This document shows positions 5,062-31,087 of a stretch of 36,729 nt of DNA, piece after piece. Source of the stretch: Spirochaetaceae bacterium. Lineage in GTDB: Bacteria > Spirochaetota > Spirochaetia > Treponematales > Rectinemataceae. Position numbers and translations under genes: made by a program. The DNA lies in the NCBI GenBank assembly GCA_025355995.1, contig JANXYQ010000082.1, positions 1 to 36,729 of the forward strand, in the 5' to 3' direction. Under the pieces are notes generated by a model, which worked only from the letters and a program-made list of their open reading frames with translations, made no database searches and was not told where the DNA came from. Position 1 is the first letter of the stretch; every line of letters begins with the position of its first letter.

Positions 5062-8000
5062 ATGCCGCACCGCCGAGTTCACGCAGCGTTCCTATGCGCC
5101 GCCTTCTGCCTCGCCGGCGCCGGTATCGGCAACGCCGAAGGCGTTAACGTGGAAGGCCCGAGCCGCGCCTGGGGCGCGGACGAGCCCTCGCCGGTTGCCG
5201 CGCCGACCCCCGATGCGCCGGCAGCCGGCGACCAGCCTAGCCTGCAGCGCGACGCCCTCCTCGTCGAGCTTTCGACGGCGGGCTTCTACGAGCTCGTGGC
5301 TCGAGCCCGCGAGCTCGCCCTGCCGGACTCGGGAACCGCCGACGAGCTCCGCGCCCGCCTCTACGAGCATTACGGTCTGAAGGCCGCGGCCGCGGCCCCC
5401 AAGGGCAGGACGGTCACCATCCAGAGGGCGGGGCAGGCGAGCTACGCGAAGGTGGAGGACGAGGAGGGCGGCGTCATCAGGGCCTCGGGAGGGGTGATCC
5501 TCACCCTCGTCGAGGCGAACGGGGACAGCCACCGCATACAGGCGGACAGCATCGCCTACGACCGGGCGCGGTCGATGGTGACCGCGAAGGGCGCCGTGGG
5601 CTATATCCGGAAGTCGGGGACCTCGACCGAGGTCTTCAGCGGCGAGACCCTGAGCGCGAACCTCGACGACTGGTCCGGCCTATTCCTGGACGGCACGCTC
5701 AGGCGCTTCGGCAACAAGAATCCGAAGACGATCGATGAAATCGTCAAGTACTTCCTAAGCCCAAGGACATTGCTGCCCAAAGGCGATCGGGTCCTGATCA
5801 TCTCGGCCGACACCATGCTCAAGCGTTCCGCGGACGTCATGGTGCTCAAGGACGGCGTGATCACGTACTGCGAGGCCGACGATCCCCATTTCAGGGTCAA
5901 GGCGAGCCGGATGTGGCTCCTCGGGGATAAGGAGTGGGCGGTCTCGGACGCGGTTTTCTACCTCGGCAACGTGCCCATACTCTGGTTGCCCTTCTTCTAT
6001 TACCCCGGCGACGAGCTCATCTTCCATCCCGTCCTCGGATATCGATCGCGCGAGGGGCGATTCCTCCAGACGACCGTCTACCTGCTCGGCTCCAAGCCGC
6101 CCAATGCGAAGAAGACCCAGCTCCTCGCCTTCGAGGAGGACGCGGGCTCGGCCAAGCCGACGAAGGTGAAGGGCCTTTTCCTTCGCCGCGTATCCGGTCC
6201 GCCGCCCAAGGACCTGGGCAGCCTGAAGACGATGGCAGACGTCTATTCGGGGCTCGGCGGCTTCGCCGGCATCCAGGGAAGCTTTCCCAAGCTCGCCTTC
6301 CTGGACAAGACCGACATCTTCCTGGGCCTCGGCTTGAGCAGGACCGTCTTTCCCCCCGCCGTAACCGGAACGAGCGCGTATTCGCCCTATGTGAACCAGG
6401 GCGATTATGCGAGCGTCTGGAACGGCTCCGACTTCCTCGGTCTCTCCCTGCCCGTCCGCTTCGGGCTGGACCTCTCCACTTCCCTGCACGTCGGGAGCTT
6501 CGCCGCGAACCTCGCCCTGCCGCTCTACTCCGACACCTACTTCGACCAGGATTTCCGCAATCGATCCGAGGACATGGACTGGCTCAAGATCCTGAGCTCG
6601 ACGGACAGCGATGCCGCCTCCTCGACGATCGCCCAGCGGACCCAGCTCGTCCCGAAGCTCGACGCCTCCTTCTCGTACAAGCCCAAGGCCCTCGATCCCT
6701 GGGTCTCCTCGATCGACATCTCGAGGTTCAGCGCGAACCTGACCCTGCTCTCGAAGAGCGCGACGCTTCCGGAGGACTCGACCCTCGCCTCCTACGACCC
6801 TGCCCGGATTTTCTTCTATCCCTCCTTCCTCCGCCCGATAGACGTCGCGGGCTCCATCCGGGGAAGCCTCTTCGGCGTGCCGCGGCAGACCCAGCCCGCC
6901 AAGCCGGATAAGGCCGTCGGCGACGCCGCGCCCGCGGCCCCCGAGTCGCTGAGGAGCCCCTGGGACGTCGTCGCCGGGACCGGCGACGAAGCGAAAACCC
7001 AAGACCCGGTACCTCCGCCTGCCGCCGCGCCGATCGAGGATTTTCGCCTTCCGCAGAGGGCCCAAGCCTCGTCCGGCTCCAAAACCCAGGCTTGGACGGG
7101 CTCGGCGACCTGGAACCTCAGCCCCTCGATGTTCGTCGAGGATCGGTACAACAGCGATTCCTGGGTCCTCCCCTCGTCGATCGACTACTCCTCCCTGCTA
7201 TACAGCCTGCTTTCCTACCGGCTCGCCGCGGGCGTGGACGCGACGGTCGCGTACGGAGACCTCGTCTCCTCCTCCCTCGGCATTTCCTACGCCGACCAAG
7301 CCCAGCGACGGCCCGTCCTCAATACCGATCTCGCCAGTACCGCCTCGTACGCGCTCGCCGACAATCTCTACAAGAGCCGCCGCGTCGGGGAGTCGGCCAA
7401 GCTGACGCTCAAGCCCCTCGCCTCGTCGTGGCTCTGGTCGGCGACCCAGCTCAGCTGGGGCCTGGACTCGACCATATACGGGCTCAAGTACGACTCGAGC
7501 TCCTCCGCCTTCAAGGAGAGCTGGCTCTCCTGGAATCCCGAATCGATAACGGCGCACAACGTCTCGGCGACCGTTTCCGCCCGCCCGAGCGGCCTCGCCC
7601 AGAGCGTCAGCCTCACGGCCAGCCTCCCGCCCCTGCTCGACTCCTATGCAGGCAACCTGGCGCTGAACGCGGGGCCCGCCTCCCTCGCCCTCCAGTCCCG
7701 CATGTACAGGAAGGCCGCGGGTGCTGCCTTTTCCTACGACCCGATCACCGCCGGCCTGACGGTCGGGACGAGCCCCGGCCCGACCCTCAAGGACAGCTTC
7801 GTCTACGACGCCACGGGGGACACCATCGGGTCCGGCTCGAGCGGCGGGCCGGTCTCCAACTCGACCAGCCTCTCGTGGGGCTTCCTGAACGCCTCCTTCG
7901 CCGCCAGGCGGACGCGCTCCTACAAGCCCGTCGTCGGCTCGGGCTGGGTCGCCTTCGGCGAGGAGGCCTTCGCGCCGAGCGACTTCTCCCTGGCCCTCAA

Positions 8001-8532
8001 TCCCGTGCTGAAGAGCGCCGCCGACGCGGCGGCGGAGGCGCCCGCCTGGTCCCTCTCCTCCAATGTCCAGCTGTCGCAGAGCCTCGTGCGCTTCTCGGAG
8101 TCGAGCCTCAGCTTCGGCCTGACCGCGTCGTTCAAGGTCGGCGACCAGCTCACCCTCTCGTTCGCGAGCGTCTCCCAGAATTCCTCGGCCTGGCGCTACT
8201 ACGCCGGCCTCTTCGGCTCGCAGCTGGCCAGCGGCGGCTTCTCCGCGGATTCCTTCCAGAAGAGCCCCTTGACGGATGTCTGGGAAGCACTCCAGGTCTG
8301 GGACGGCGCGACCCTGAGGGACAGCCTGTTCAAGCTCAAGTCCCTCTCGGTCAAGGCCTCGAGGGACCTCCACGATTGGACCCTCTCCGCCGAGGTCGCG
8401 ACCGCGCCCCTCTACGACTCGACCTCCAAGTCCTATTCGCTCAATACCACCTTCACCTTCCTCCTCGCCTGGAAGGACATCCAGGACATCAAGACCACGG
8501 TCAAGAAGGACACGGCCGGGCTCAGCTATTGA
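5062..8532 (+). CDS. lptD: LptD/OstA-family outer-membrane assembly protein
   Basis: This 1156-residue protein has a signal peptide (residues 1-25, cleavage near GNA). A short helix-loop-helix segment with a SAP-like pattern follows at about 68-106. An OstA/LptA-like jelly-roll domain spans about 115-300, with phrases such as IQADSIAYDRARS and the LptD-characteristic VPILWLPFFYYPGDE. The rest (300-1156) is a long beta-barrel region of alternating hydrophobic strands ending in an aromatic residue (Tyr), as expected for BAM substrates. A Pro/Ala-rich, probably disordered insert lies at about 615-675. LptD proteins insert lipopolysaccharide or related lipids into the outer leaflet; E. coli LptD is 784 aa, so this one is large. 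Some spirochaetes lack LPS, and the cargo may be another glycolipid. The position directly after uvrA resembles the Treponema pallidum arrangement (from memory). Confidence 0.85.
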   Translation: MPHRRVHAAFLCAAFCLAGAGIGNAEGVNVEGPSRAWGADEPSPVAAPTPDAPAAGDQPSLQRDALLVELSTAGFYELVARARELALPDSGTADELRARLYEHYGLKAAAAAPKGRTVTIQRAGQASYAKVEDEEGGVIRASGGVILTLVEANGDSHRIQADSIAYDRARSMVTAKGAVGYIRKSGTSTEVFSGETLSANLDDWSGLFLDGTLRRFGNKNPKTIDEIVKYFLSPRTLLPKGDRVLIISADTMLKRSADVMVLKDGVITYCEADDPHFRVKASRMWLLGDKEWAVSDAVFYLGNVPILWLPFFYYPGDELIFHPVLGYRSREGRFLQTTVYLLGSKPPNAKKTQLLAFEEDAGSAKPTKVKGLFLRRVSGPPPKDLGSLKTMADVYSGLGGFAGIQGSFPKLAFLDKTDIFLGLGLSRTVFPPAVTGTSAYSPYVNQGDYASVWNGSDFLGLSLPVRFGLDLSTSLHVGSFAANLALPLYSDTYFDQDFRNRSEDMDWLKILSSTDSDAASSTIAQRTQLVPKLDASFSYKPKALDPWVSSIDISRFSANLTLLSKSATLPEDSTLASYDPARIFFYPSFLRPIDVAGSIRGSLFGVPRQTQPAKPDKAVGDAAPAAPESLRSPWDVVAGTGDEAKTQDPVPPPAAAPIEDFRLPQRAQASSGSKTQAWTGSATWNLSPSMFVEDRYNSDSWVLPSSIDYSSLLYSLLSYRLAAGVDATVAYGDLVSSSLGISYADQAQRRPVLNTDLASTASYALADNLYKSRRVGESAKLTLKPLASSWLWSATQLSWGLDSTIYGLKYDSSSSAFKESWLSWNPESITAHNVSATVSARPSGLAQSVSLTASLPPLLDSYAGNLALNAGPASLALQSRMYRKAAGAAFSYDPITAGLTVGTSPGPTLKDSFVYDATGDTIGSGSSGGPVSNSTSLSWGFLNASFAARRTRSYKPVVGSGWVAFGEEAFAPSDFSLALNPVLKSAADAAAEAPAWSLSSNVQLSQSLVRFSESSLSFGLTASFKVGDQLTLSFASVSQNSSAWRYYAGLFGSQLASGGFSADSFQKSPLTDVWEALQVWDGATLRDSLFKLKSLSVKASRDLHDWTLSAEVATAPLYDSTSKSYSLNTTFTFLLAWKDIQDIKTTVKKDTAGLSY

Positions 8533-15221: not shown

Positions 15222-15346
15222 AAGCGCGGACGAGTTCGCGCGCTGCGGTAGCGCCGCCGTAGCGCTGCGAACGCGAAGGCGCGCGAAGGCAGGAGTCTCG
15301 CGCGATTTCCGCATATTCATGCACGCATTTGAATATCCTCGCGATC

Positions 15347-15375
15347 TTGCCGGCCCTCGGCCTTCGGCTTACAAT
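15347..15375 (+). promoter_or_regulatory. Promoter of the first gdhA (TTGCCG-N17-TACAAT)
   Basis: TTGCCG at 15347-15352 and TACAAT at 15370-15375 have 17-base spacing. The predicted start near 15382 leaves a leader of about 13 bases containing AAGGAGA before the ATG at 15395. The rest of 15222-15346 is non-coding with GC-rich short dyads (for example GCGCT-N5-AGCGC near 15239) and no clear terminator. Confidence 0.6.
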
Positions 15376-15394
15376 TAAGGACGAAGGAGAACTC

Positions 15395-16741
15395 ATGAAC
15401 CCCTACATCGAACAAGTCCTCGACGAGCTAAGGGCGCGCTACCCCTGGGAGACCGAATTCCTGCAAGCAGTCGAGGAAGTCCTCGAATCCATATCGCCCC
15501 TCATCGACGCCGAGCCCAAGTACAAGTCCCAGCGCATCCTCGAGCGTATCACGGAGCCCGAGCGGACCGTCATGTTCCGCGTGCCCTGGATGGACGACAA
15601 GGGCACCTTCCGCATCAATCGCGGCTACCGCGTCCAATTCAACTCGGCCATCGGCCCCTATAAGGGCGGCATCCGCTTCCACCCCAAGGTCTCTCTCTCG
15701 ACCCTGAAATTCCTCGGCTTCGAGCAGACCTTCAAGAACTCCCTGACCGGCCTCCCCATGGGCGGCGGCAAGGGCGGGTCCGACTTCGATCCCAACGGCA
15801 AGAGCGAGAACGAGATCATGCGCTTCTGCCAGAGCTTCATGTCCGAGCTATTCCGCCACGTCGGCGCGGACACCGACGTGCCCGCCGGCGACATCGGCGT
15901 GGGCGGCCGCGAGGTCGGCTACATGTTCGGGCAGTACAAGCGCCTCGCGAACGAGTGGAACGGCGTGCTCACGGGCAAGGGCCTGGGCTTCGGCGGCTCC
16001 CTCGTCAGGCCCGAGGCCACCGGCTTCGGCGCCATCTACTTCGCCCAGGAGATGCTCGCCGAGAAGGGCGGCAGCCTGGCCGGCAAGACCATCTCCGTCT
16101 CGGGCTTCGGCAACGTGGCCTGGGGCGCCTGCATCAAGGGCAGCCAGCTGGGCGCCAAGGTCGTCACGATCTCCGGGCCGGACGGCTATGTCTACGATCC
16201 CGACGGCATCGGCACGCAGGAGAAGTGGGACTATTTGACGCAGATGCTCGTCATAGACCGCGAGAAGGTCGAGACCTACGTCCGCAAGTTCCCCAACGCC
16301 AAGTTCTTCGCCGGCAAGAAGCCCTGGGAGCAGAAGGTCGACATCGCGATGCCCTGCGCCATCCAGAACGAGCTGAACGGGGACGACGCGCGTACGCTCA
16401 TCGGGAACGGGGTGAGCTCCGTGGTCGAGACCTCGAACATGGGCTGCACCGCCGAGGCCTGGAAGCTCTTCGTCGAGAAGAAGATTCCCTTCGCCCCGGG
16501 CAAAGCGGCCAACGCCGGCGGAGTCGCGACCTCGGGGCTCGAGATGAGCCAGAATTCGATGCGCCTGCTCTGGAGCGCCGAGGAAGTGGACCGCCGCCTC
16601 CACGAGATAATGCGCAACATCCACAGGGCCTGCGTCGAGAACGCCAAGAAATACGGCTTCGAGGGCAATTACGTCGTCGGCGCAAACATTGCGGGCTTCA
16701 GGAAGGTGGCCGACGCGATGATCGACCAGGGCCTGGTGTAG
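15395..16741 (+). CDS. gdhA: Glutamate dehydrogenase, NAD-type signature
   Basis: This 448-residue hexameric-type glutamate dehydrogenase interconverts glutamate and 2-oxoglutarate plus ammonia in the cytosol. Substrate-site motifs are intact: [27 protein letters not shown] with its catalytic lysine, and [17 protein letters not shown]. The nucleotide-binding fold reads GFGNVAWG, and the end of its second beta strand reads SGPDGYVYDPDGI, matching what I recall of the NAD-dependent clostridial enzyme rather than the SDSxG of NADP enzymes; NAD use is therefore inferred. SNMGCTAEA replaces the common ANMPTT. The start is the ATG at 15395 with AAGGAGA upstream; the open frame extends to 15329, but that extension has no homology. 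It has its own promoter and is separate from the TPR operon. A degradative role (glutamate to 2-oxoglutarate) would fit NAD use. Confidence 0.95.
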   Translation: MNPYIEQVLDELRARYPWETEFLQAVEEVLESISPLIDAEPKYKSQRILERITEPERTVMFRVPWMDDKGTFRINRGYRVQFNSAIGPYKGGIRFHPKVSLSTLKFLGFEQTFKNSLTGLPMGGGKGGSDFDPNGKSENEIMRFCQSFMSELFRHVGADTDVPAGDIGVGGREVGYMFGQYKRLANEWNGVLTGKGLGFGGSLVRPEATGFGAIYFAQEMLAEKGGSLAGKTISVSGFGNVAWGACIKGSQLGAKVVTISGPDGYVYDPDGIGTQEKWDYLTQMLVIDREKVETYVRKFPNAKFFAGKKPWEQKVDIAMPCAIQNELNGDDARTLIGNGVSSVVETSNMGCTAEAWKLFVEKKIPFAPGKAANAGGVATSGLEMSQNSMRLLWSAEEVDRRLHEIMRNIHRACVENAKKYGFEGNYVVGANIAGFRKVADAMIDQGLV

Positions 16742-16866: not shown

Positions 16867-18375
16867 GTGTCTTTATCTGCTATGACGACCACCGCAGCCA
16901 TCGCCGGAGGCAAGATCGCCTTCGCGGCTCTGATTTCTTCGCTATCTGATAAGCTCGGCGAGAGCCTCCGCCCCGGCGGCGAGGCCGATGCTCGGGCCTT
17001 CGACGCGCTTCGCTCGACGCGCGCTCTCTCCTGCTTCATTCCCGCGGCCTACGGGGGGCGGGGCGAAGCCCAGAGGGAAATCCTCTCCCTCCTCGAGGCC
17101 GTTTCCTACTTGTCCCTGCCCCTTGGGCTGACGGTCGGGATAAACGGCGGCCTCTTCCTCCAGCCCCTGTCCAAATACGGCGGCGAAGCCGTCAAGGAGC
17201 TGGCCTTCTCCCGTTTCCTCGACGAGGGCGCCCTGGGGGGGCTCATGCTCACGGAGCCCGATTACGGCACCGACGTCCTGTCCATGCGCAGTTCCTTCGA
17301 GCGGAGCGGCGAGGAGTACGCGATCCGAGGCGCCAAGCACTGGGCCGGCCTCTCGGGACTGGCCGATTTCTGGATCGTCACCGCGAGGGAGAGGGGGAGG
17401 GAGGGGGCGCTCAAGCGGGATATCGACTTCTTCGTCTGCGATTCCCGGGAAGCCGCGCAGGAGATCCGGGTCCAGGAATACTACCCCAACCTTGGACTTC
17501 GCCCCATTCCCTACGCCCTCAATAAAGTCGACGTCCGCGTCCCGCTCGGACAAAGGCTGGAGAGGCCGGGCAGCGGCGTTAGGCTGCTCATGGATACGCT
17601 TCACCGCAGCAGGATGAGCTTCGGCGGCATGGCCGTGGGCTTCATCCGCAGACTCCTGGACGAGGGGATCGGCCGCTGCAGGGAGAGGAGGGTGGGGGGC
17701 AAGAGCCTCATCGCCTACGACCAGGTCGAGGGTCGGCTGGCCGAGATCCAGGCCGCCCATACGATCAGCGCCGCGTTCTGCAGCTACTCAGCGGCCAATT
17801 CGACCGTCGCCCGGGATCTCTCGGGCGAGGGGCTGGCCGCGAATATCCACAAATCGGTCCTGAGCGACCTCATGCAGGAGTCCTCCCAGTCCCTCCTCCA
17901 GCTGTCCGGGGCCCAGGGATACCGCGCGGACCGCCTGGCGGGGAGGGCGACAGTCGACTCCAGGCCCTTCCAGATCTTCGAGGGCTCGAACGACGTCCTG
18001 TACGACCAGATCGCCTCGACCTTCGTGAAATCCATGGCGGAGCTCAAGGAGGAGAGGCTCCCTGTCTTCCTCGGGCTCCACGCCCTGACCGCCCGCGCCG
18101 CCGGCCGCTTCGCCGCCGTCCTCGATTTCCGCGTCTCCGGGGACCTGCCCCAGCGGAGGATGGTGACCCTGGGCAGGATATTCGCGGGCGTCGCCTCGGC
18201 GGACATGCTGCTGGGCCTGGGCTCCTCCGGCTTCGCGCCGCGGCTCGTCGCAAACGCGATCGAGTTCCTTCGCGCGAAGGTCGCCGGCCTGGCCGCCGGC
18301 CTCGCGGGATCCGGGAGCGCCCGCCTCGTCCAGGACTACGCGGCCGGGCCCGACTGGCAGGCCTGCTCGCGCTGA
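16867..18375 (+). CDS. Acyl-CoA dehydrogenase family flavoprotein
   Basis: This protein of about 502 residues has the three-part acyl-CoA dehydrogenase fold: an N-terminal helical domain with FIPAAYGGRGE (about 58-68), a middle beta domain with LMLTEPDYGTDV (about 120-131) and KHWAGLSGLADFWIV, which form the FAD/substrate site, and a C-terminal helical domain with RMSFGGMAVGF and QLSGAQGYR. The catalytic-base region IFEGSNDVLYDQIA (about residue 371) keeps the glutamate expected in EGT-type motifs, so the enzyme is probably active. These enzymes oxidise acyl-CoA thioesters at the alpha-beta bond and pass electrons to ETF. No CoA-pathway gene is adjacent, so the substrate cannot be inferred. 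The start is uncertain: GTG 16867 or ATG 16882, neither with a Shine-Dalgarno sequence. It sits between gdhA and the receiver-PPDK gene. Confidence 0.88.
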   Translation: MSLSAMTTTAAIAGGKIAFAALISSLSDKLGESLRPGGEADARAFDALRSTRALSCFIPAAYGGRGEAQREILSLLEAVSYLSLPLGLTVGINGGLFLQPLSKYGGEAVKELAFSRFLDEGALGGLMLTEPDYGTDVLSMRSSFERSGEEYAIRGAKHWAGLSGLADFWIVTARERGREGALKRDIDFFVCDSREAAQEIRVQEYYPNLGLRPIPYALNKVDVRVPLGQRLERPGSGVRLLMDTLHRSRMSFGGMAVGFIRRLLDEGIGRCRERRVGGKSLIAYDQVEGRLAEIQAAHTISAAFCSYSAANSTVARDLSGEGLAANIHKSVLSDLMQESSQSLLQLSGAQGYRADRLAGRATVDSRPFQIFEGSNDVLYDQIASTFVKSMAELKEERLPVFLGLHALTARAAGRFAAVLDFRVSGDLPQRRMVTLGRIFAGVASADMLLGLGSSGFAPRLVANAIEFLRAKVAGLAAGLAGSGSARLVQDYAAGPDWQACSR

Positions 18376-18415: not shown

Positions 18416-21400
18416 ATGTACTTCAACGACCTGGTCGAGGCCTACGACGAGTCCCGCGTGGAGCGCAACGCCTTCCACGACCTCATGCGCTACAGGGTCC
18501 GCGAGGTCCTCCTCGTCGCCAGCCTCTACGAGTCCTTCGTCGTCGAGTCCGACGGCGTGCTCACGGAGCAGATCTACGGGGAGTACTTCAAGCTCCACCT
18601 CAATACCGTCCCGCGCATAACCTGCGCCTATACGGCCGAGTCGGCCCTCGAGATGTTCCGGGAGGGCCGCTTCGACCTGGTGGTCCTGATAGCCGGCCTC
18701 GATTTCGACGTGCCCCTGGGCCTGGCGCGCTCCATGAAAGACGAGTGGCCGGGCGTGCCCATTCTCCTCATGGTCACGAACAACACGAGCCTCGCCGTAT
18801 TGGAGGGCTCGACCGGCGAGCGCGGCTCGCCGAGGCCCGGCCTGGATGCGGTGGACAGGGTCTTCGTGTGGAACGGCTACTCGAAGCTCTTCATCGGGAT
18901 GCTCAAGCAGGTCGAGGACCTGCGCAACGTCGACGCCGACACGCGGACGGGCCTCGTGCGCGTGATCCTCCTCATCGAGGACTCGGTCCGCTACTACTCG
19001 CGCTACCTGCCCCTCCTCTTCCAGGTCGTGCAGCGCCAGGCCCAGGCCCTCATCGAGGCCGAGAAGGGCGTCGAGACCCACAAGCTCCTCCGGGCGCGGG
19101 CGAGGCCCAAGATCCTCCTCGCCTCGAGCTACGAGGAGGCGATAGCCCTCTTCGAGCGCTACGAGCCCTACATTCTCACCGTGATCTCTGACGTCCGCTT
19201 CCCGAAGGCGGGGAAGCAGGACCCCGAGGCGGGCTTCGACTTCATGCGCATGGCCAAGGAGCGGATCTCCGACCTCCCGATCATGATCCAGTCGAGCGAG
19301 GAAGGCGTGCGCGAGCGGGCCTTCTCGATGGGCGCGGCCTTCGCCGACAAGAGCTCCGAGTCCCTCGAGCACGAGCTCGCGAGCTTCCTGCACGACAGCC
19401 TGGGCTTCGGGCCCTTCATGTTCCGGATGCCCGACGGGGCCCCCGTGGCCGAGGCCGGCGACATCGACGAGTTCATGAGCCTGCTCGAGGAAGTGCCCGA
19501 GGAGTGTCTCGTCTACCACGCCGGCCGCAACGACTTCTCCACCTGGCTCACCGCCCGCGGGGAGATACGCTTCGCCAGCAAGCTCAAGCCCTACAAACTC
19601 GGCGATTTCGGGACCACGGGCGCGATGCGCGACTTCATCGTCACCATGCTTCGCGAGGCGCGGAAGGCCAGGTCCCGGGGCGCCATCCCCTACTACGAGG
19701 CCGCGTCCTGCCGCGACGAGAATTGCCTCTCCAGGCTCGGCGACGGCTCCGTCGGGGGCAAGGGCCGCGGCCTCGTCTTCATCAAGAGCCTCCTCGACAA
19801 CGTGAGCTTCCCCCGCTATATCAAGGGGATCGACGTCAAGATCCCGCGCACCGCCTTCATCGGGATCGACGAGTTCGAGCTCTTCCTCGAGTCCAACGGC
19901 ATGTGGTCCTATGCCTTCTACGAGTCGGCGGGGGAGCACAAGGACTCGGAGCTCCGCGAGCGCTTCCTCCGCACGCGGCTCTCCGCCACCCTCGAGGAGA
20001 GGCTCGGGCGATTCGCCGCGGAGACCGATCGCCCCCTGGCCGTGCGCTCCTCGGGCCTCTTCGAGGACATGCTCCAGGTCCCCTTCTCCGGCATCTACGA
20101 GACCTACATCATCCCCAACTCCCATCCCGACGGCTCCTTCCGGGGAGCCCAGCTCTGCCAGGCCGTGAAGCTCATCTACGCCAGCCTCTTCTCGCAGAAG
20201 ACCCGCGCCTATTTCGAGATGGCGGGTTATGCCCTCGAGGAGGAGAGGATGGGCGTGGTGGTCCAGGAGCTCGTCGGCTCGCGGCGGGGGCGCTGGTACT
20301 ACCCCCACGTCTCGGGCACGGCGCAGTCCTACAATTACTACCCCGTGTCCTACCTGAAGCCCGAGGACGGCCTCTGCATCTCCGCCCTCGGCCTCGGCTC
20401 CTACGTCGTGGGCGGCGGCCCCGCCCACCGCTTCTGTCCCAAGTACCCCAAGCTCGACGTCATCGCCCCCGAGCGCGTCCTCGACTCCTCGCAGCGGGTC
20501 TTCCGCGCCCTCGACATGGAGGACGCGGAGCCCGACATACTCCTCGGCGACGAGGCGGCCCTGCGCGAGATCGACATAGCCGAGGCCGAGGCGGACCCGC
20601 GCTTCGCCCTCCTCGCCTCGACCTGGGACGCCGAGAACGACAGGCTCTCCGCCGGCGTCGGGGCCAGGGGCGCGAGGATCGTCGACCTCGCGAACATCCT
20701 CAAGCACGACGCCCTCCCCTTTGCCGAGGCCATCGACATGGTCCTGGACATGGGCTCCCGCTCGATGGGTACGCCAGTCGAGATCGAGTACGCGCTCAAC
20801 CTCGACGAGCCGGGCGGAGCGCCCGCACTCTATCTCCTCCAGCTCAAGCCCCTCATCCGCAGCGAGGGCAAGGGCGTAGTCGAGCTCGAGGGCGTCTCGC
20901 GCGACGATTGCTTCATCTACTCGGACCGCAGCATGGGCAACGGCCGCGACGCGGGCATCGAGGACGTGGTATGGGTGGACCCGCGGAAATTCGACCGCAA
21001 GGAGACGCTCGCGATAGCCGCCGAGATCGAGGGGCTCGACAGGGAGATGCGCGCCCTCGGGCGCCGCTACGTCCTCGTCGGCCCCGGCCGCTGGGGCACC
21101 CGCGACCGCTGGCTCGGCGTGCCAGTGGCCTTCACTCAAATCTCGATGGCCCGCGTCATCGTCGAGGCGGACCTCCCCGACTTCAAGGTCGAGTCCTCGC
21201 TCGGGTCCCATTTCTTCCACAACGTGACGAGCATGAACATCGGCTACTTCACCGTGCCCTGGAACGGCGCCGGCAAGGTCGACTGGGACTGGCTCTATTC
21301 ATTCGCGCCCGAGCGGACCACGCCGCATTGCGCGAGGACCCGCCTCCCCGGTGGGCTCGAGATCCTGATGGACGGGAGGAAGAGCCTCGCCGCCATACGG

Positions 21401-21430
21401 AAGCGCGGCAAGGCCGAGCCGGGAAGTTGA
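18416..21430 (+). CDS. Pseudoreceiver-receiver-PPDK_N protein, first copy
   Basis: This 1004-residue cytoplasmic protein has a visible domain order. Residues 28-165 form a receiver-like domain lacking the phospho-acceptor (VVLIAGLDF where an Asp is expected). Residues 182-325 form a second receiver with the key residues in place: acidic pair in LLIEDS (188-189), Asp259 in VISDVRFP, Ser in IQSSEE (293-294) and Lys312 in ADKSS, with an unusually long first helix region. About 437-815 is a PPDK/PEP-synthase N-terminal ATP-grasp domain, with GDGSVGGKGRG (442-452), AVRSSGLFED (542-551), VVVQELVGS and a closing LLQLKP. A conserved C-terminal module follows (GPGRWGTRDRWLG near 890, GSHFFHN near 930). 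The phosphohistidine and TIM-barrel domains of true PEP synthases were not found, so it probably does not make PEP by itself. A paralogue lies at 23821. A phosphorylation-controlled phosphotransfer role is inference. Confidence 0.8.
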   Translation: MYFNDLVEAYDESRVERNAFHDLMRYRVREVLLVASLYESFVVESDGVLTEQIYGEYFKLHLNTVPRITCAYTAESALEMFREGRFDLVVLIAGLDFDVPLGLARSMKDEWPGVPILLMVTNNTSLAVLEGSTGERGSPRPGLDAVDRVFVWNGYSKLFIGMLKQVEDLRNVDADTRTGLVRVILLIEDSVRYYSRYLPLLFQVVQRQAQALIEAEKGVETHKLLRARARPKILLASSYEEAIALFERYEPYILTVISDVRFPKAGKQDPEAGFDFMRMAKERISDLPIMIQSSEEGVRERAFSMGAAFADKSSESLEHELASFLHDSLGFGPFMFRMPDGAPVAEAGDIDEFMSLLEEVPEECLVYHAGRNDFSTWLTARGEIRFASKLKPYKLGDFGTTGAMRDFIVTMLREARKARSRGAIPYYEAASCRDENCLSRLGDGSVGGKGRGLVFIKSLLDNVSFPRYIKGIDVKIPRTAFIGIDEFELFLESNGMWSYAFYESAGEHKDSELRERFLRTRLSATLEERLGRFAAETDRPLAVRSSGLFEDMLQVPFSGIYETYIIPNSHPDGSFRGAQLCQAVKLIYASLFSQKTRAYFEMAGYALEEERMGVVVQELVGSRRGRWYYPHVSGTAQSYNYYPVSYLKPEDGLCISALGLGSYVVGGGPAHRFCPKYPKLDVIAPERVLDSSQRVFRALDMEDAEPDILLGDEAALREIDIAEAEADPRFALLASTWDAENDRLSAGVGARGARIVDLANILKHDALPFAEAIDMVLDMGSRSMGTPVEIEYALNLDEPGGAPALYLLQLKPLIRSEGKGVVELEGVSRDDCFIYSDRSMGNGRDAGIEDVVWVDPRKFDRKETLAIAAEIEGLDREMRALGRRYVLVGPGRWGTRDRWLGVPVAFTQISMARVIVEADLPDFKVESSLGSHFFHNVTSMNIGYFTVPWNGAGKVDWDWLYSFAPERTTPHCARTRLPGGLEILMDGRKSLAAIRKRGKAEPGS

Positions 21431-21494: not shown

Positions 21495-22943
<1,449 letters not shown>

Positions 22944-23820: not shown

Positions 23821-26800
23821 ATGGCACCGGAAACAGCCATGTACTTCGAGGAGCTCGTGGCCTCCTACGACGAGTCGAGGCGGGGGCACAATGTCTTCCA
23901 CGACCTGATGCGCTGGAGGGTCCGCGAGGTCCTGCTCGTGGGCAGCCTCTACGACGCCTTCGTGGTGGAGTCCGACGGCATACTCAACGAGCAGGTCTAC
24001 GGGGAGTACTACAAACTCAACCTCAACACGGTGCCGCGCATCACCTCGGCCTACACTGAGGAGAGGGCCCTGAAGCTCTTCCGCAGGGGGGGCTTTGACG
24101 TGGCGATACTGATGGCGGGGCTCGATTTCGAGAAGCCCCTCGCAATAGCCCGGGCGATGAAGGAGGCCTGGCCCGCTGTGCCCATCCTCCTCATGGTGAC
24201 CAACAACTCGAGTCTCTCGATCCTGGAAACCGCCGGGCGAGGCTCGCAGGGCGAGCTTCGCCCGGCGCTTGCGGCGATCGACAGGGTCTTCGTGTGGAAC
24301 GGCTACTCGAAGCTCTTCGTCGGCATGCTCAAATACATCGAGGACCGCCGCAACGCGGATGCCGACACTCGTTCGGGGCTGGTCCGCGTCATCCTCCTCA
24401 TCGAGGACTCGGTCCGCTACTACTCTCGCTACCTCCCCACGCTCTACGAGGCGGTGATGCGCCAGACCCGGGACCTCATCGAGGGGGCGAGGGGGGGCGA
24501 GACCTACAAGCTCCTTCGCGCCCGCGCGAGGCCCAAGGTCCTCCTGGCCTCGAGCTGGGAGGAGGCCATGCCCCTCTTCGAGCGCTACCAAGGCTCCATC
24601 CTCACGGTCATCACGGACCTGCGCTTCCCTCGCGACGGCGTCGCGGACCCCTCCGCGGGCGCGGATTTCCTCGCCTTCGCCGCGAGCCGGGTCAAGGACC
24701 TCCCCGTGATGATCCAGACCAGCGAGGAGGGCGGCAGGGAGAGGGCCGCGGCCCTCGGGGCGGCCTTCGCGGACAAGTCCTCGGCCTCCCTCGAGCGCGA
24801 GCTCGGCGACTTCCTGCACGGCAGCCTTGGCTTCGGCCCCTTCCGATTCCGAATGCCGGGGGGGGAGGAGATCGCGCGCGCAGCCACGATGGACGAGTTC
24901 ATCGCCGCCCTAGCCGTCCTCCCCTTCGAGTCCCTCCTCTACCACGCCGAGCGCAACCACTTCTCCGCCTGGCTCCTCGCCCGCGGGGAGATAGCCTTCG
25001 CCAAGCTCCTGCGCGACGCCCGGCCCGAGGACTTCGCGGGCCCTTCCGAGGTGCGCGATTTCGTGATCCGCGTGCTGGTCGACGCGCGCAAGGAGCTCTC
25101 GCGCGGGACCATCCCCTCCTTCGACGACTCGGCCTTCCGCGACGAGGGAAGCCTCGCGCGGCTCGGGGACGGCTCGGTCGGCGGCAAGGGGAGGGGCATC
25201 GTCTTCATCCGGAGCCTCATCGACAACCTCGATTTCTCCCGCCACCTGGAGGGGCTCGAGGTCAAGCTGCCGAGGAGCGCCTTCGTCGGAATCGACGAGT
25301 TCGAGGTCTTCCTCGAATCCAACGGCCTTTGGGCTTACGCGTTCGACGACCCGGTCGCTCCGGCCGGCCCCAGTTCCGCGGGGGGGGATCCGGCCGAGCT
25401 CCGCGAGCGCTTCCTCTCCGCGTCCCTGAGCCGGGGACTGGTCAGCAGGCTCGAGTCCTTCGTGGCGGCCGTGGGCAAGCCCCTCGCCGTCCGCTCCTCG
25501 GGCCTCTTCGAGGACATGCTGGCCGTCCCCTTCTCGGGCGTGTACGACACCTATATCATCCCCAACTGCCATCCGGACCCGAGGGTGCGCCTCGAGCAGC
25601 TCGAGTCCGCGATCAAGCTCATCTACGCCAGCCTCTTCGCGCCGCGCTCGAGGACCTATTTCGAGCTGGCCGGCTACAACCTCGAGGAGGAGAGGATGGC
25701 CGTCGTCGTCCAGGAGCTCGTCGGCTCGAGGAGGGGGCGCTGGTTCTATCCCCACGTGTCGGGGACCGCCCAGTCCTTCAACTTCTATCCCCTCTCCTAC
25801 GCCCGGCCCGAGGACGGGCTCTGCGTGGCGGCGCTGGGCCTGGGCACCTACGTAGTCGAGGGCCTGCCCTCCTATCGCTTTTGCCCCGCCTACCCCAAGC
25901 TGGAGGCGACGCCGGCCTCGAGGCTCAAGGCGGACTCGCAGCGGCGCTTCCGCGCCCTCGACATGGGCAACGACTCTCCCGACCTCAGGGCGGGCGAGGA
26001 CGCGGACCTGGTCGACCTCGAGCTCTCCGAGGCCGAGGCCGACCCCTGCTTCGCCCTCCTGGCCTCGACTTGGGACGCCGAGAACGAGCGCCTCGTCCCG
26101 GGCCTCGGCGCGAGGGGCATGCGCGTCGTGGACCTCTCGGGGATATTGGTCTACGAGTCCCTGCCCCTCGCGCGCGCGATCGGCATCGTCCTAAACGTGG
26201 TCGAGCGCTCCATGGGCTGCCCCGTTGAGATAGAGTTCGCCCTCAACCTCGACGAGGCCTCGGGCAAGCCGGCCTTGTATCTCCTCCAGATCAAGCCCCT
26301 CCTGCGGACCGGGGGAGGCGCGGCCGTCGAGCTCGGGGAACCGGTCCCGGGGGAGGCCTTCATAGTCTCGGAGAGGAGCATGGGAAACGGCCGCGACTCC
26401 GCGATACGCGACATCGTGTGGGTCGAGCCGGCCTCCTTCGACCGCTCCGCGACGGAAGCCGCGGCCAGGGAGATAGAGGAGCTCGACCGGGAGCTGCGCG
26501 CCATCGGGAGGCGCTACGTGCTGGTGGGGCCCGGCCGCTGGGGCACGCGTGACCGCTGGCTGGGCATACCCGTGGTCTATTCCCAGATATCGAACGCCAG
26601 GCTCATCGTCGAGACGGAGATGCCCGGCTTCAGCGTCGACTTCTCGTTCGGCTCGCATTTCTTCCACAACGTGACGAGCATGAACGTCGGCTACCTGACT
26701 CTGCCCGGGGGAGGGGGCAGCTACATCGACTGGGCCTGGCTCTCTTCCCTGCCTACGAAGCGAAGGACGGCGCACTGCGCCTGGGCCTGCCTGGACCAGC

Positions 26801-26877
26801 CGCTCGAGATCGCGATGGACGGGAGGAAGGGGAGGGCCGTCGTGAGGAAGCCCGAGGCCTCCCCGCGACGGGAATGA
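23821..26877 (+). CDS. Pseudoreceiver-receiver-PPDK_N protein, second copy
   Basis: This protein of about 1018 residues is a full-length paralogue of the product at 18416 with the same domain order. The first receiver again lacks its phospho-acceptor (ILMAGLDF). The second keeps LLIEDS, the Asp in VITDLRFP, Thr-Ser in IQTSEE and the Lys in ADKSS. The PPDK-type ATP-grasp motifs GDGSVGGKGRG and AVRSSGLFED and the C-terminal GPGRWGTRDRWLG and GSHFFHN are retained. The phosphohistidine and PEP/pyruvate TIM-barrel domains of PEP synthase are missing. Differences include a Gly/Pro-rich insert at about residues 513-525. Two starts are possible: ATG 23821, eight bases after a -10-like TAAAGT, or ATG 23839, which aligns with the first copy. 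It follows the DUF1801 gene by 42 bases. Confidence 0.8.
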   Translation: MAPETAMYFEELVASYDESRRGHNVFHDLMRWRVREVLLVGSLYDAFVVESDGILNEQVYGEYYKLNLNTVPRITSAYTEERALKLFRRGGFDVAILMAGLDFEKPLAIARAMKEAWPAVPILLMVTNNSSLSILETAGRGSQGELRPALAAIDRVFVWNGYSKLFVGMLKYIEDRRNADADTRSGLVRVILLIEDSVRYYSRYLPTLYEAVMRQTRDLIEGARGGETYKLLRARARPKVLLASSWEEAMPLFERYQGSILTVITDLRFPRDGVADPSAGADFLAFAASRVKDLPVMIQTSEEGGRERAAALGAAFADKSSASLERELGDFLHGSLGFGPFRFRMPGGEEIARAATMDEFIAALAVLPFESLLYHAERNHFSAWLLARGEIAFAKLLRDARPEDFAGPSEVRDFVIRVLVDARKELSRGTIPSFDDSAFRDEGSLARLGDGSVGGKGRGIVFIRSLIDNLDFSRHLEGLEVKLPRSAFVGIDEFEVFLESNGLWAYAFDDPVAPAGPSSAGGDPAELRERFLSASLSRGLVSRLESFVAAVGKPLAVRSSGLFEDMLAVPFSGVYDTYIIPNCHPDPRVRLEQLESAIKLIYASLFAPRSRTYFELAGYNLEEERMAVVVQELVGSRRGRWFYPHVSGTAQSFNFYPLSYARPEDGLCVAALGLGTYVVEGLPSYRFCPAYPKLEATPASRLKADSQRRFRALDMGNDSPDLRAGEDADLVDLELSEAEADPCFALLASTWDAENERLVPGLGARGMRVVDLSGILVYESLPLARAIGIVLNVVERSMGCPVEIEFALNLDEASGKPALYLLQIKPLLRTGGGAAVELGEPVPGEAFIVSERSMGNGRDSAIRDIVWVEPASFDRSATEAAAREIEELDRELRAIGRRYVLVGPGRWGTRDRWLGIPVVYSQISNARLIVETEMPGFSVDFSFGSHFFHNVTSMNVGYLTLPGGGGSYIDWAWLSSLPTKRRTAHCAWACLDQPLEIAMDGRKGRAVVRKPEASPRRE

Positions 26878-27735: not shown

Positions 27736-29361
27736 TTGGACGCACGATCCCTCGTAAAGAGCCTTCATCCCCTGGAAGTGAAGGTTCTCCTCCGCTACGG
27801 CACCCCCGACGCCATGGCCTCGGGCGACGCCATCGCGTCGGGCGGCGACCGACTCGATTCGGCCCGCCTCGAATCCGAGCTCGGATATAAGGAAGGGCAT
27901 TCCAACCAGGCCTTCTCCTGGCTCTCGGCCAAGGGGCTCGCCGCCGAGGACGGGCGCGAGGCGCGGACGGTCTACGAACTCACCCCGCTCGGCCGCGAGT
28001 TCGCCGAGAAGGGCGCTCCCGAGGAGCGCATCCTGCGCTATCTATCCGAGAAGGGCCCGAGCCGCCTGCCGGACATCGCCGCCGGCCTCGGCCTGGAGCA
28101 GAAGGACGTAGGCTCCGCCTTCGGCACGCTCTCCAAGGAAGGCGCGCTCTCCATGGACGGCGACAAGCGAGCCGTCCTGTCGACGGAATGGTTCGAGAAG
28201 GCGCACGCCGCCGGCGGCGCCAAGCCGCGCGTGGCGATAGTCCGGGAGCTCCTCGCCAAGGCGGTCGCCTCCGAGGGCGGCCTGCTCGAGGAATCGGCTC
28301 TGGACGGGCCGGAGAAGGCCGCGATGGCCGGCATCGCCCGCAAGCGCGGGGCCGGGGACGCGGCCTTCCGCGCGGCCGAGCGCGAGCGCGTCTGGTACCG
28401 CCTCACCGCGGACGCCGTCCTGGCGGCCGAGGAGCTCAGGTCCCAGGGCGTCACGGGCGAGGAACTCGGCGCGGTCACCCCCGAGCTGCTGCAGAGCGGA
28501 GCCTGGAAGGAATCGACCTTCCGCCCGTACAATATAAACGCGCCCGCGGCCAGGCTCATGCCCGGAAGGCGCAACGCCTACGTGGAGTTCCTCGAGGGCG
28601 TCAAGGACAAGCTCGTCTCCCTCGGCTTCGAGGAATTCGACGGCGGCCTCGTCGAGACGGAATTCTGGAACTCCGACGCCCTCTTCATGCCTCAGTTCCA
28701 CTCCGCCCGCGACATACATGACGTCTATCACCTGGCCGAGCCCACGAAGGCCAAGTCCATCGAGGAGCCCTACCTCTCGCAGGTGGCCGCCACCCACGAG
28801 AACGGCGGGGCCTCGGGAAGCCGCGGCTGGAACTACTCCTTCGACCGCGAGTTCACCAAGCGCCTAATCCTGCGCAGCCAGGGCACGGTGCTCTCCGCGC
28901 GGCAGCTCCCCAAGGCCAAGGTGCCCGGCAAGTACTTCGGCATCGCCCGCTGCTTCCGCTACGACAAGGTCGACGCGACCCACCTCTCGGATTTCTACCA
29001 GACCGAGGGCATCGTCCTCGGCGAGGACGTCAACCTCCGCACCCTGCTCGGCTTCCTCGAGATGTTCGCCGTCGAAGTGGCCGGCGCCAAGGAGGTCAAG
29101 TACGTCCCGGGCTACTTCCCCTTCACGGAGCCCTCGGTCGAGGTGCACATCAAGCACCCGGTGCTCGGCTGGTTCGAGCTAGGCGGCTCGGGGATATTCA
29201 GGCCCGAGGTGACCGAGCCCCTCGGCATCAAGGTCCCCGTGCTCGCCTGGGGCATCGGGATAGACCGCATGGCCCTGATGGCCCTCGGCCTCAACGACCT
29301 GCGCGACCTGTTCAGCCCCGACATCGAGAGCGTCAGGCTACGCCGCGCCAAGAACATTTGA
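27736..29361 (+). CDS. pheS: Phenylalanyl-tRNA synthetase alpha subunit, archaeal type
   Basis: This 541-residue alpha subunit of PheRS charges tRNA-Phe with phenylalanine as an alpha2-beta2 tetramer. Residues 1-170 carry winged-helix-like segments found in the archaeal/eukaryotic form rather than the coiled coil of the usual bacterial one. The class II catalytic core begins near 280. Motif 2 is visible as IARCFRYDKVDATHLSDFYQ (about 400-420) and motif 3 as GIGIDRMALMALG (about 506-518). The usual bacterial alpha subunit is about 330-350 aa, so length also points to the archaeal type, which spirochaetes are known to have. The start is TTG at 27736 with AGGAG six bases upstream. pheT follows after 13 bases. 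Confidence 0.95.
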   Translation: MDARSLVKSLHPLEVKVLLRYGTPDAMASGDAIASGGDRLDSARLESELGYKEGHSNQAFSWLSAKGLAAEDGREARTVYELTPLGREFAEKGAPEERILRYLSEKGPSRLPDIAAGLGLEQKDVGSAFGTLSKEGALSMDGDKRAVLSTEWFEKAHAAGGAKPRVAIVRELLAKAVASEGGLLEESALDGPEKAAMAGIARKRGAGDAAFRAAERERVWYRLTADAVLAAEELRSQGVTGEELGAVTPELLQSGAWKESTFRPYNINAPAARLMPGRRNAYVEFLEGVKDKLVSLGFEEFDGGLVETEFWNSDALFMPQFHSARDIHDVYHLAEPTKAKSIEEPYLSQVAATHENGGASGSRGWNYSFDREFTKRLILRSQGTVLSARQLPKAKVPGKYFGIARCFRYDKVDATHLSDFYQTEGIVLGEDVNLRTLLGFLEMFAVEVAGAKEVKYVPGYFPFTEPSVEVHIKHPVLGWFELGGSGIFRPEVTEPLGIKVPVLAWGIGIDRMALMALGLNDLRDLFSPDIESVRLRRAKNI

Positions 29362-29374
29362 GGAGAGGGAAGAC

Positions 29375-31087
29375 ATGCCCAAGATAGAAGTAAACGAGAG
29401 CCTCTTCTTCTCCCTCCTGGGACGGCGCTTCTCCGCTCGCGAGCTCGAGTCCAGGCTCGAGGGGGCCAAGGCCGAGCTCGACGAGTGGCTCGAGGACCAG
29501 GTCGGCCCGGTGGACGAGCGGACCATAAAGATCGAGCTCAACGACACCAACCGCCCCGACCTCTGGTCCACCGCCGGCCTCGCGCGGGCCCTCAGGGTGA
29601 GGGAGACGGGAACGCGCCCCGAGTATCCCTTCTTCTCGCGCGAGGGCGCGCCCGCCGCGTCGAAGCGGAAGGTCGTCGTCGAGGAGAGCGTGAAGGGCGT
29701 CCGGCCCTTCCTCGCCGGCTTCTTCGTCTCGGGCCGCGCGATGACCGACGCGGTCCTCAAGGACATCATCCAGACCCAGGAGAAGCTCTGCTGGAATTTC
29801 GGCCGCAAGCGCCGCTCCGTCTCCATGGGCATCTACCGCACCGCGATCATCCAGTGGCCAGTCCGCTACAAGGCGGTCGCCCCCGACTCCGTGCGCTTCG
29901 TGCCCCTCCAGGGCGACAGGCCCATGACCCTCACCGAGATACTCAAGGAGCATCCGAAGGGGAGGGAGTACGGCTTCATCAACGAGCCGCACGCGCTCCA
30001 TCCCCTCCTCACGGACGCGAAGGGCGCCATCCTCTCCTACCCGCCCATCATCAATTCCAACGACCTCGGCGCGGTCAAGGTCGGCGACACCGAGCTCTTC
30101 GTCGAGCTCACGGGCACCGACCTCGTCTCGGTGACCCTCTCCGCCTCGATCGTGGCCTGCGACTTCGCGGACTCGGGCTTCGCCGTCGAGCCCGTCAAGG
30201 TCGAGTATCCCTACGATACGGCCTTCGGCCGCGAGGTGACCTTCCCCTATTATTTCCAGACGCCGGTGAGCGTAGAGGCGGCTAAGGTCTCCAAGCTCCT
30301 CGGGAAACCCTTCAGCGTCCAGGCGGTCCGCGACGCGGTCCGCCTCATGGGCTGCGCGACGGAGAGCCACGGCCAGTACGTGACGGTGTACCCTCCCGAG
30401 TACCGCAACGACTTCCTGCACGCCGTCGACATCGTCGAGGACGTGATGATGGGCAAGGGGATGGCTTTCTTCGAGCCCGAGCGCCCGCGCGACTTCACGA
30501 TCGGCCGGCTCACCCCCGTCGAGCTCATCTCGCGCAGGGCCAAGGCCATCCTCGCGGGCCTGGGCGGCCAGGAGATGATCTACGGCTATTTAGGGTCCGG
30601 CAAGGACCTCGTCGAGAGGATGGGAACCGGGGACGGCGAGGCGATCCGCATCTCCAACCCGATGGCGGAGAGCTTCGAGTACGTTCGCCCCTCGATACTT
30701 CCCAACCTCCTCGGCTCCGAGTCGGTGTCGAGCAGGGCTCCCTATCCCCATCGCATCTTCGAGGCGGGCAAGGTCGCCTTCCGCAACCCGCTGGAGAACT
30801 ACGGCGTCTCGACCCGCGCCAGGATAGCCTTCCTCCTCGCCCACGGCTCCGCTGACTACAACGAGGCGGCGAGCCAGGTCGCTACCCTCATGTTCTTCCT
30901 CGGCAAGGACTATTCCATCGCCGAGACCGAGGACCCGCGATTCATCCCCGGCCGGCAGGCCAGGGTGATCTACAAGGGCGATCCCATCGGCATCTTCGGC
31001 GAGATCCATCCCCGCGTCCTCGAGGCCTGGAGCATCGCCATGCCCTGCTCCGCGGCCGAGATCGACCTGGAGTCCCTCCTCGTCTAG
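29375..31087 (+). CDS. pheT: Phenylalanyl-tRNA synthetase beta subunit, archaeal type
   Basis: This 570-residue protein is the structural and editing beta subunit of PheRS. It is short (bacterial PheT is about 795-800 aa) and lacks the N-terminal tRNA-binding EMAP domain and the C-terminal anticodon-binding (FDX-ACB) domain, as expected for archaeal/eukaryotic-type beta chains. Visible landmarks are IELNDTNRPDLWSTAGLARALR (about 50-71, B1-like), the B3/B4 editing region around 100-260 with YPPIINSNDLGAV, a B5 domain near 300-370 and a catalytic-like class II module to the end with SNPMAESFEYVRPSILPNLL (about 427-446). The ATG has GGAGAGGGAAG upstream. It lies in an operon with pheS; the HEAT-repeat gene starts shortly after its stop. 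Confidence 0.95.
   Translation: MPKIEVNESLFFSLLGRRFSARELESRLEGAKAELDEWLEDQVGPVDERTIKIELNDTNRPDLWSTAGLARALRVRETGTRPEYPFFSREGAPAASKRKVVVEESVKGVRPFLAGFFVSGRAMTDAVLKDIIQTQEKLCWNFGRKRRSVSMGIYRTAIIQWPVRYKAVAPDSVRFVPLQGDRPMTLTEILKEHPKGREYGFINEPHALHPLLTDAKGAILSYPPIINSNDLGAVKVGDTELFVELTGTDLVSVTLSASIVACDFADSGFAVEPVKVEYPYDTAFGREVTFPYYFQTPVSVEAAKVSKLLGKPFSVQAVRDAVRLMGCATESHGQYVTVYPPEYRNDFLHAVDIVEDVMMGKGMAFFEPERPRDFTIGRLTPVELISRRAKAILAGLGGQEMIYGYLGSGKDLVERMGTGDGEAIRISNPMAESFEYVRPSILPNLLGSESVSSRAPYPHRIFEAGKVAFRNPLENYGVSTRARIAFLLAHGSADYNEAASQVATLMFFLGKDYSIAETEDPRFIPGRQARVIYKGDPIGIFGEIHPRVLEAWSIAMPCSAAEIDLESLLV

Follow-up and report, generated by a model that had tools for sequence, protein, structure and literature searches.

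A PPDK-like protein family associated with glutamate dehydrogenase in Spirochaetota and Bacteroidota

PEP synthase and PPDK are built from an ATP-grasp domain (PF01326), a His domain (PF00391) and a TIM barrel. What, then, does a PPDK-type ATP-grasp domain do when it is placed behind two receivers, in a protein that seems to lack the rest of this machinery? The question is raised by a gene at positions 18416-21430 (forward strand) of the 36,729-nucleotide stretch of DNA analyzed here (the window). The original prediction described two receivers, one degenerate and one intact, joined to a PPDK-type ATP-grasp domain with neither a His domain nor a TIM barrel, and proposed signal-gated, ATP-dependent phosphotransfer to an unknown protein or small molecule. 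The open reading frame and the domain description were confirmed: the bounds are exact, the frame begins with ATG and encodes 1004 residues, and its start codon coincides with that of the close relative in Spirochaetaceae bacterium UBA1306 (L003) and nearly with that of the paralogue. UBA1306 is the nearest named relative (80% identical) of the host, which has a spirochaete-related genome of 4.5 Mb. In this protein, which we call RR-PPDK copy 1, Pfam reports PPDK_N at residues 445-817 (E 1.8e-32) and, below the cut-off, DUF5752 at residues 347-392 (19454..19591, forward strand), and it detects neither PF00391 nor a TIM barrel. With only 72 residues between His932 and the end of the chain, there is no TIM barrel. 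The full-chain AlphaFold model (four sequences) reached a pLDDT of 37.6, too low for reading a domain arrangement. Three features had been missed: a C-terminal domain with an invariant His932, a second copy of the gene, and flanking genes for glutamate dehydrogenase (GDH).

The input side of the protein agrees closely with what was predicted. Receiver 1 (residues ~28-172; 18497..18931, forward strand) is recognized by profile matches to response regulators, and its Response_reg match at residues 63-125 scores 22.3 bits against the Pfam cut-off of 30.2; this is the only PF00072 match in copy 1, none lying above the cut-off. Its degeneracy is evident at the phospho-Asp position (I92 in copy 1), which is never Asp in the 22 full-length homologues (Met in 15, Thr in 5, Ile in 1 and Val in 1). 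Receiver 2 (residues ~180-330; 18953..19405, forward strand), defined by homologue alignment, is intact: Asp259 is conserved in 22/22 homologues, as is Ser or Thr at position 293 (S293 in copy 1), while E188 and K312 are each found in 21/22 and D189 in 18/22 (3 Asn). In receiver 2 an unusually long segment (residues 190-231; 18983..19108, forward strand) separates strands 1 and 2; predicted at about 45 residues, it spans 189 to 232 (about 43 residues) and is a feature of the family, ending in LRxRxRPK with R226, R228, R230 and K232 (R-x-R-x-R-P-K) invariant and Pro in 21/22. A genome search for a cognate histidine kinase yielded 33 HisKA matches, none of them in the window and none assignable as the partner. 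A motif scan of 65 loci found 0 histidine kinase neighbours, a count that is not evidence of absence because a kinase annotated in L132 escaped the scan too.

The ATP-grasp domain (residues ~436-817; 19721..20866, forward strand) is of the PPDK type, as predicted, with an hhalign E of 6.9e-23 against PEP synthases. All ATP-site motifs are present (the K of GGK, the R of VRSS, DxE/ExE and QxR/QxK), represented in copy 1 by K449, R544, E550/D551, E789/E791, Q809 and K811. In an alignment spanning two architectures, K449, R544, E550, D551, E610, E791 and Q809 are invariant (36/36), and position 811 is Lys or Arg in every aligned protein. We take these conserved residues to be the ones that hold and cleave ATP in PPDK; since they match, the domain should be catalytically active. 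Rifampicin phosphotransferase models match this region weakly, the equivalog NF041857 giving copy 1 24.1 bits against a cut-off of 999.

Does the protein contain an acceptor for the phosphoryl group? The final ~180 residues (821-1004; 20876..21427, forward strand) form a domain common to all relatives, with the pattern LxGPGRWGTxxPxLGVPV...IVE...SxG[ST]HFF. Within it, His932 (codon 21209..21211, forward strand; SLGSHFFHN), a candidate phosphoryl acceptor, is invariant in 35/35 sequences. Sequence comparison does not connect this domain to known phosphohistidine domains: among 35 members Pfam finds neither PF00391 nor any shared family, hhalign of the C-terminal alignment against the His domains of PPDK, PEPS and EI gave nothing usable in local or global mode, a PDB search with the C-terminal profile (hmmsearch) returned two matches at chance level only, and the GGxTxH motif is absent. 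With hhalign, hmmsearch and Pfam all giving no support, sequence proof of a phosphohistidine domain was dropped. One hint in favour of a His domain is that the PDB profile match to PEP synthase 8a8e extends beyond the ATP-grasp domain, up to residue 394, and so into what we take to be the first strand of the PEP synthase His domain.

The AlphaFold model of residues 821-1004 (three sequences, best of five models) has a pLDDT of 69.6 and a pTM of 0.72, with the His loop under 50. Foldseek returned no match with E <= 0.001 for this model. VIA-align 2 placed it with the apical domains of GroEL and TRiC (Z up to 5.7) and with the central domain of PPDK (5jvn 381-510; Z 4.3, rmsd 3.7, 111 aligned), Z values of 4-6 falling in the range that VIA-align 2 calls common; RraA, the transferrin-receptor (TfR1) apical domain and LD-carboxypeptidase are also listed. 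All of these presumably belong to one SCOP fold, the swivelling beta/beta/alpha fold. In the model His932 lies in the low-confidence loop between strands 913-918 and 942-947, a position that may, on this weak indication, correspond topologically to the catalytic His loop of PPDK. The C-terminal domain is thus probably a diverged swivelling domain, with His932 as the probable phosphoryl acceptor. The profile searches bear out the predicted lack of PF00391 and of a TIM barrel, but it is probably incorrect to conclude that a His domain is missing: its usual place in the chain is taken by a conserved domain that has a swivelling-type model and contains an invariant His.

To see how widely this arrangement is used, we examined the relatives of RR-PPDK, which are present in 59/296 genomes of the phylum and absent from the viral contigs scanned. 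Three architectures occur, all with the ATP-grasp and C-terminal domains, and it is the N-terminal input module that varies. The first, that of the window, has two receivers and is also the type found in Bacteroidota, where WP_041525632.1 is 34% identical over nearly its full length, shares the architecture and adjoins gdhA. The second (e.g. L022, L048) carries an N-terminal STGxxxLDxxxxGDN segment (STGxxxLDxxxxGDNVVWQ) that looks like a RecA/KaiC-like domain, in which we saw neither a Walker A motif nor a Pfam match. The third (L109, L111, L131; also L121, L127) comprises proteins of 1030-1080 residues whose N-terminus contains no named domain. The C-terminus of L109, L111 and L131 is a nucleotidyltransferase-like region (Pfam names PF01909 in L109 and L131), presumably of the kind found in the nitrogen regulators GlnD or GlnE; by analogy, it might provide a second covalent modification.

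The genes that surround the family point to nitrogen metabolism. In the window, NADP-type GDH genes lie on both sides of copy 1: GDH1 at 15329..16741 and GDH2 at 21501..22943 (both forward strand), the latter starting 70 bp downstream of copy 1, with a true start that may be internal to the frame. RR-PPDK copy 2 (23821..26877, forward strand; 1018 residues, 64% identical to copy 1) follows, so that the order is GDH1, an acyl-CoA dehydrogenase-like gene, RR-PPDK copy 1, GDH2, a DUF1801 gene and RR-PPDK copy 2. GDH and RR-PPDK genes each occur exactly twice in the genome, all four within one 12-kb part of the window, and the assembly contains no third RR-PPDK copy. Across the family, GDH is found in the flank of 52/64 genes, within 500 bp in 43, at a median gap of 232 bp. 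The linkage extends over 21 families (two of them Bacteroidota), two phyla and the three N-terminal architectures, and takes every relative orientation (n=52: tandem in 22 and 14 for the two gene orders, divergent in 13, convergent in 3); in Parabacteroides distasonis, gdhA is divergent and about 250 bp from the RR-PPDK-type gene, whose product is WP_041525632.1. The GDHs adjoining genes of the third architecture are only 33-36% identical to those of the window.

At 12/64 loci no GDH lies in the flank, some of these flanks ending at contig ends. Two of the twelve have glutamate synthase instead: the neighbour L107:413-4903 is the large subunit, GltB, and L046:7535-8176 is a GltD-like frame that reads as the small subunit. 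Glutamate synthase is also close by at four further loci (L100, L103, L116, L124). Canonical PEP-utiliser loci served as a control, and GDH was found at 0/20 of them (10-16 kb each, 281 kb in total, all from GDH-encoding genomes). GDH is encoded in 57/59 genomes that carry the family and in 112/237 that do not (Fisher p 4.7e-14, indicative only because the genomes are related), and the 112 GDH genomes without an RR-PPDK protein show that GDH does not depend on it. Copy 1 itself has the ATP-grasp domain, the GxHFF C-terminal domain and the GDH or glutamate synthase neighbour that define the family. The family is associated with GDH, a conclusion we hold with near certainty. The neighbourhood points to a common process and does not by itself make the GDH protein the substrate. 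Synteny that was merely inherited and has no functional meaning would explain a gene order shared by related genomes, such as GDH1...RR-PPDK-PheS-PheT, which recurs in two families of one taxonomic order, but the four orientations, the 21 families in two phyla, the varied N-terminal architectures and GDH types and the 0/20 control leave it a very small chance and refute it as far as neighbourhood data go.

How might these parts work together? A constant core, exchangeable inputs and a tie to one nitrogen enzyme suggest that RR-PPDK regulates a pathway instead of catalysing one of its steps. Our leading interpretation, to which we give somewhat less than an even chance, is that RR-PPDK is a signal-gated phosphotransferase whose target is GDH or the glutamate/ammonium node. 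A histidine kinase would phosphorylate Asp259 of receiver 2; the phosphorylated receiver would alter, and so gate, the ATP-grasp domain; this domain would phosphorylate His932 with ATP as donor; and His932 would hand the phosphoryl group to the target, most likely GDH or else a metabolite of the GDH node, so that ammonium assimilation or glutamate breakdown would be tuned. The domain content, the conservation of ATP-site and receiver residues, the invariant His and the GDH gene linkage are observed; the swivelling fold, the acceptor role of His932, the choice of the GDH protein as target and the direction in which regulation acts are inferred. The original proposal is supported in its phosphorylatable receiver, ATP-site residues and missing TIM barrel, though not in dispensing with a His domain, and gene linkage offers GDH, or the glutamate/ammonium node, as a candidate for its "unknown protein or small molecule". 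To judge from its sequence, RR-PPDK would fit phosphotransfer aimed at something other than pyruvate. As a broader and doubtful generalization, Spirochaetota and Bacteroidota may control GDH by PPDK-derived protein phosphotransferases that act through His932 and are fitted with interchangeable sensor modules.

Two other readings deserve weight. RR-PPDK could be a regulated dikinase or kinase for a small molecule, a glutamate, 2-oxoglutarate or ammonium metabolite that GDH supplies or consumes and that the ATP-grasp and His domains would phosphorylate, just as rifampicin phosphotransferase and PEP synthase phosphorylate their substrates. The intact ATP-site residues suit such an enzyme, its neighbours GDH and glutamate synthase are enzymes of one metabolic node, and to our knowledge all characterized proteins with a PPDK-type ATP-grasp domain (PEPS, PPDK, RPH, GWD) target small molecules or glucans. 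We nevertheless consider it unlikely: Pfam recognizes no TIM barrel or other substrate domain before or after the core in copy 1 and its relatives, and freely swapped input domains fit signalling better than they fit a pathway enzyme. RR-PPDK could also be a sensor that binds ATP and controls GDH through direct contact, without phosphotransfer, the states of its receiver and ATP-grasp domain reporting signal and energy charge much as PII-type proteins do for other nitrogen enzymes. GDH linkage and variable input modules would be expected of it, and it is favoured by the weakness of the case for a true phosphohistidine domain; but pure sensors tend to lose catalytic-type residues, whereas here such residues, among them E791, Q809 and a His that has no other explanation, are invariant across architectures, making this reading improbable as well.

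Least probable among the mechanistic readings, and very unlikely in our judgement, is the one first put forward, in which the ATP-grasp domain has no His domain of its own and passes its phosphoryl group to a separate phosphohistidine protein or another target. PF00391 is unmatched in the chain, and the search for stand-alone phosphohistidine proteins did find four separate PF00391 proteins in the genome; yet the place where a His domain is normally located is already filled by a conserved domain whose His is invariant.

RR-PPDK can be compared with systems already described. Like PEP synthase and PPDK, it has an ATP-grasp domain with the ATP-site residues followed by an invariant-His domain that is probably swivelling; it differs in having receivers in front, no TIM barrel, a C-terminal domain unrecognizable by sequence and without GGxTxH, and a linkage to GDH. 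Rifampicin phosphotransferase and glucan water dikinase likewise join an ATP-grasp and a His domain without a TIM barrel and use an acceptor other than pyruvate, but their domain order and acceptor domains are different. Response regulators with enzymatic outputs share the acidic pair, the phospho-Asp, the Ser/Thr and the Lys, whereas RR-PPDK has two receivers (one dead), the long strand 1-2 segment and a PPDK-like output. From the "PEP/pyruvate-binding domain-containing protein" of Bacteroidota (NCBI WP_041525632.1) it differs in nothing essential, and public records for such proteins give that domain name only. The open-access literature contained no description of the family, of a PPDK-like receiver output or of a PPDK-GDH link (subscription papers lay outside the search). 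Both the core and receiver input are known; what is new is their combination and a testable partner, GDH.

This partner matters because, in many anaerobes, GDH is a main route by which ammonium enters metabolism. We know of no dedicated protein regulator of GDH in either Bacteroidota or Spirochaetota. A gene found together with GDH at about four-fifths of its loci, in two phyla, in any orientation and with sensor domains that can be exchanged, is a strong lead to one, and RR-PPDK is a strong candidate for an unrecognized regulator of the conversion of ammonia to glutamate in spirochaetes. The modification of E. coli NADP-GDH is reportedly a phosphohistidine. The results suggest that the PPDK catalytic scheme, from ATP-grasp to swivelling His, has been re-used for signalling; if this is true, we know of no earlier case in which the scheme is directed at a protein. 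The E. coli enzyme is reported to be phosphorylated in vivo (Lin and Reeves 1994, listed as reference 26 in PMC3318891). Labels such as "phosphoenolpyruvate synthase" or "PEP/pyruvate-binding protein" are likely to mislead metabolic models.

Comparison with related genomes also sheds light on the layout of the window. UBA1306 (L003) has a single GDH and a single RR-PPDK at the equivalent syntenic place, and GDH2 and RR-PPDK copy 2 therefore look like an extra pair in the present genome. The acyl-CoA dehydrogenase-like gene (16867-18375) that separates GDH1 from RR-PPDK copy 1 is not there in the relatives checked. A frame of 1156 residues at 5062-8532 has no Pfam match but a conserved counterpart in UBA1306 (about 55% over the portion compared). 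In a tandem RR-PPDK paralogue at L036:5350-8205 the C-terminal domain is decaying, with GPGLPFGS for GPGRWGT and GSHFS for GSHFF, which perhaps marks an inactive copy. PheS (541 residues) and a short PheT (570 residues) occupy 27736-31087 of the window and look like the archaeal/eukaryal-type PheRS of spirochaetes; they come after the RR-PPDK genes in every same-order locus checked (L003, L033-L036).
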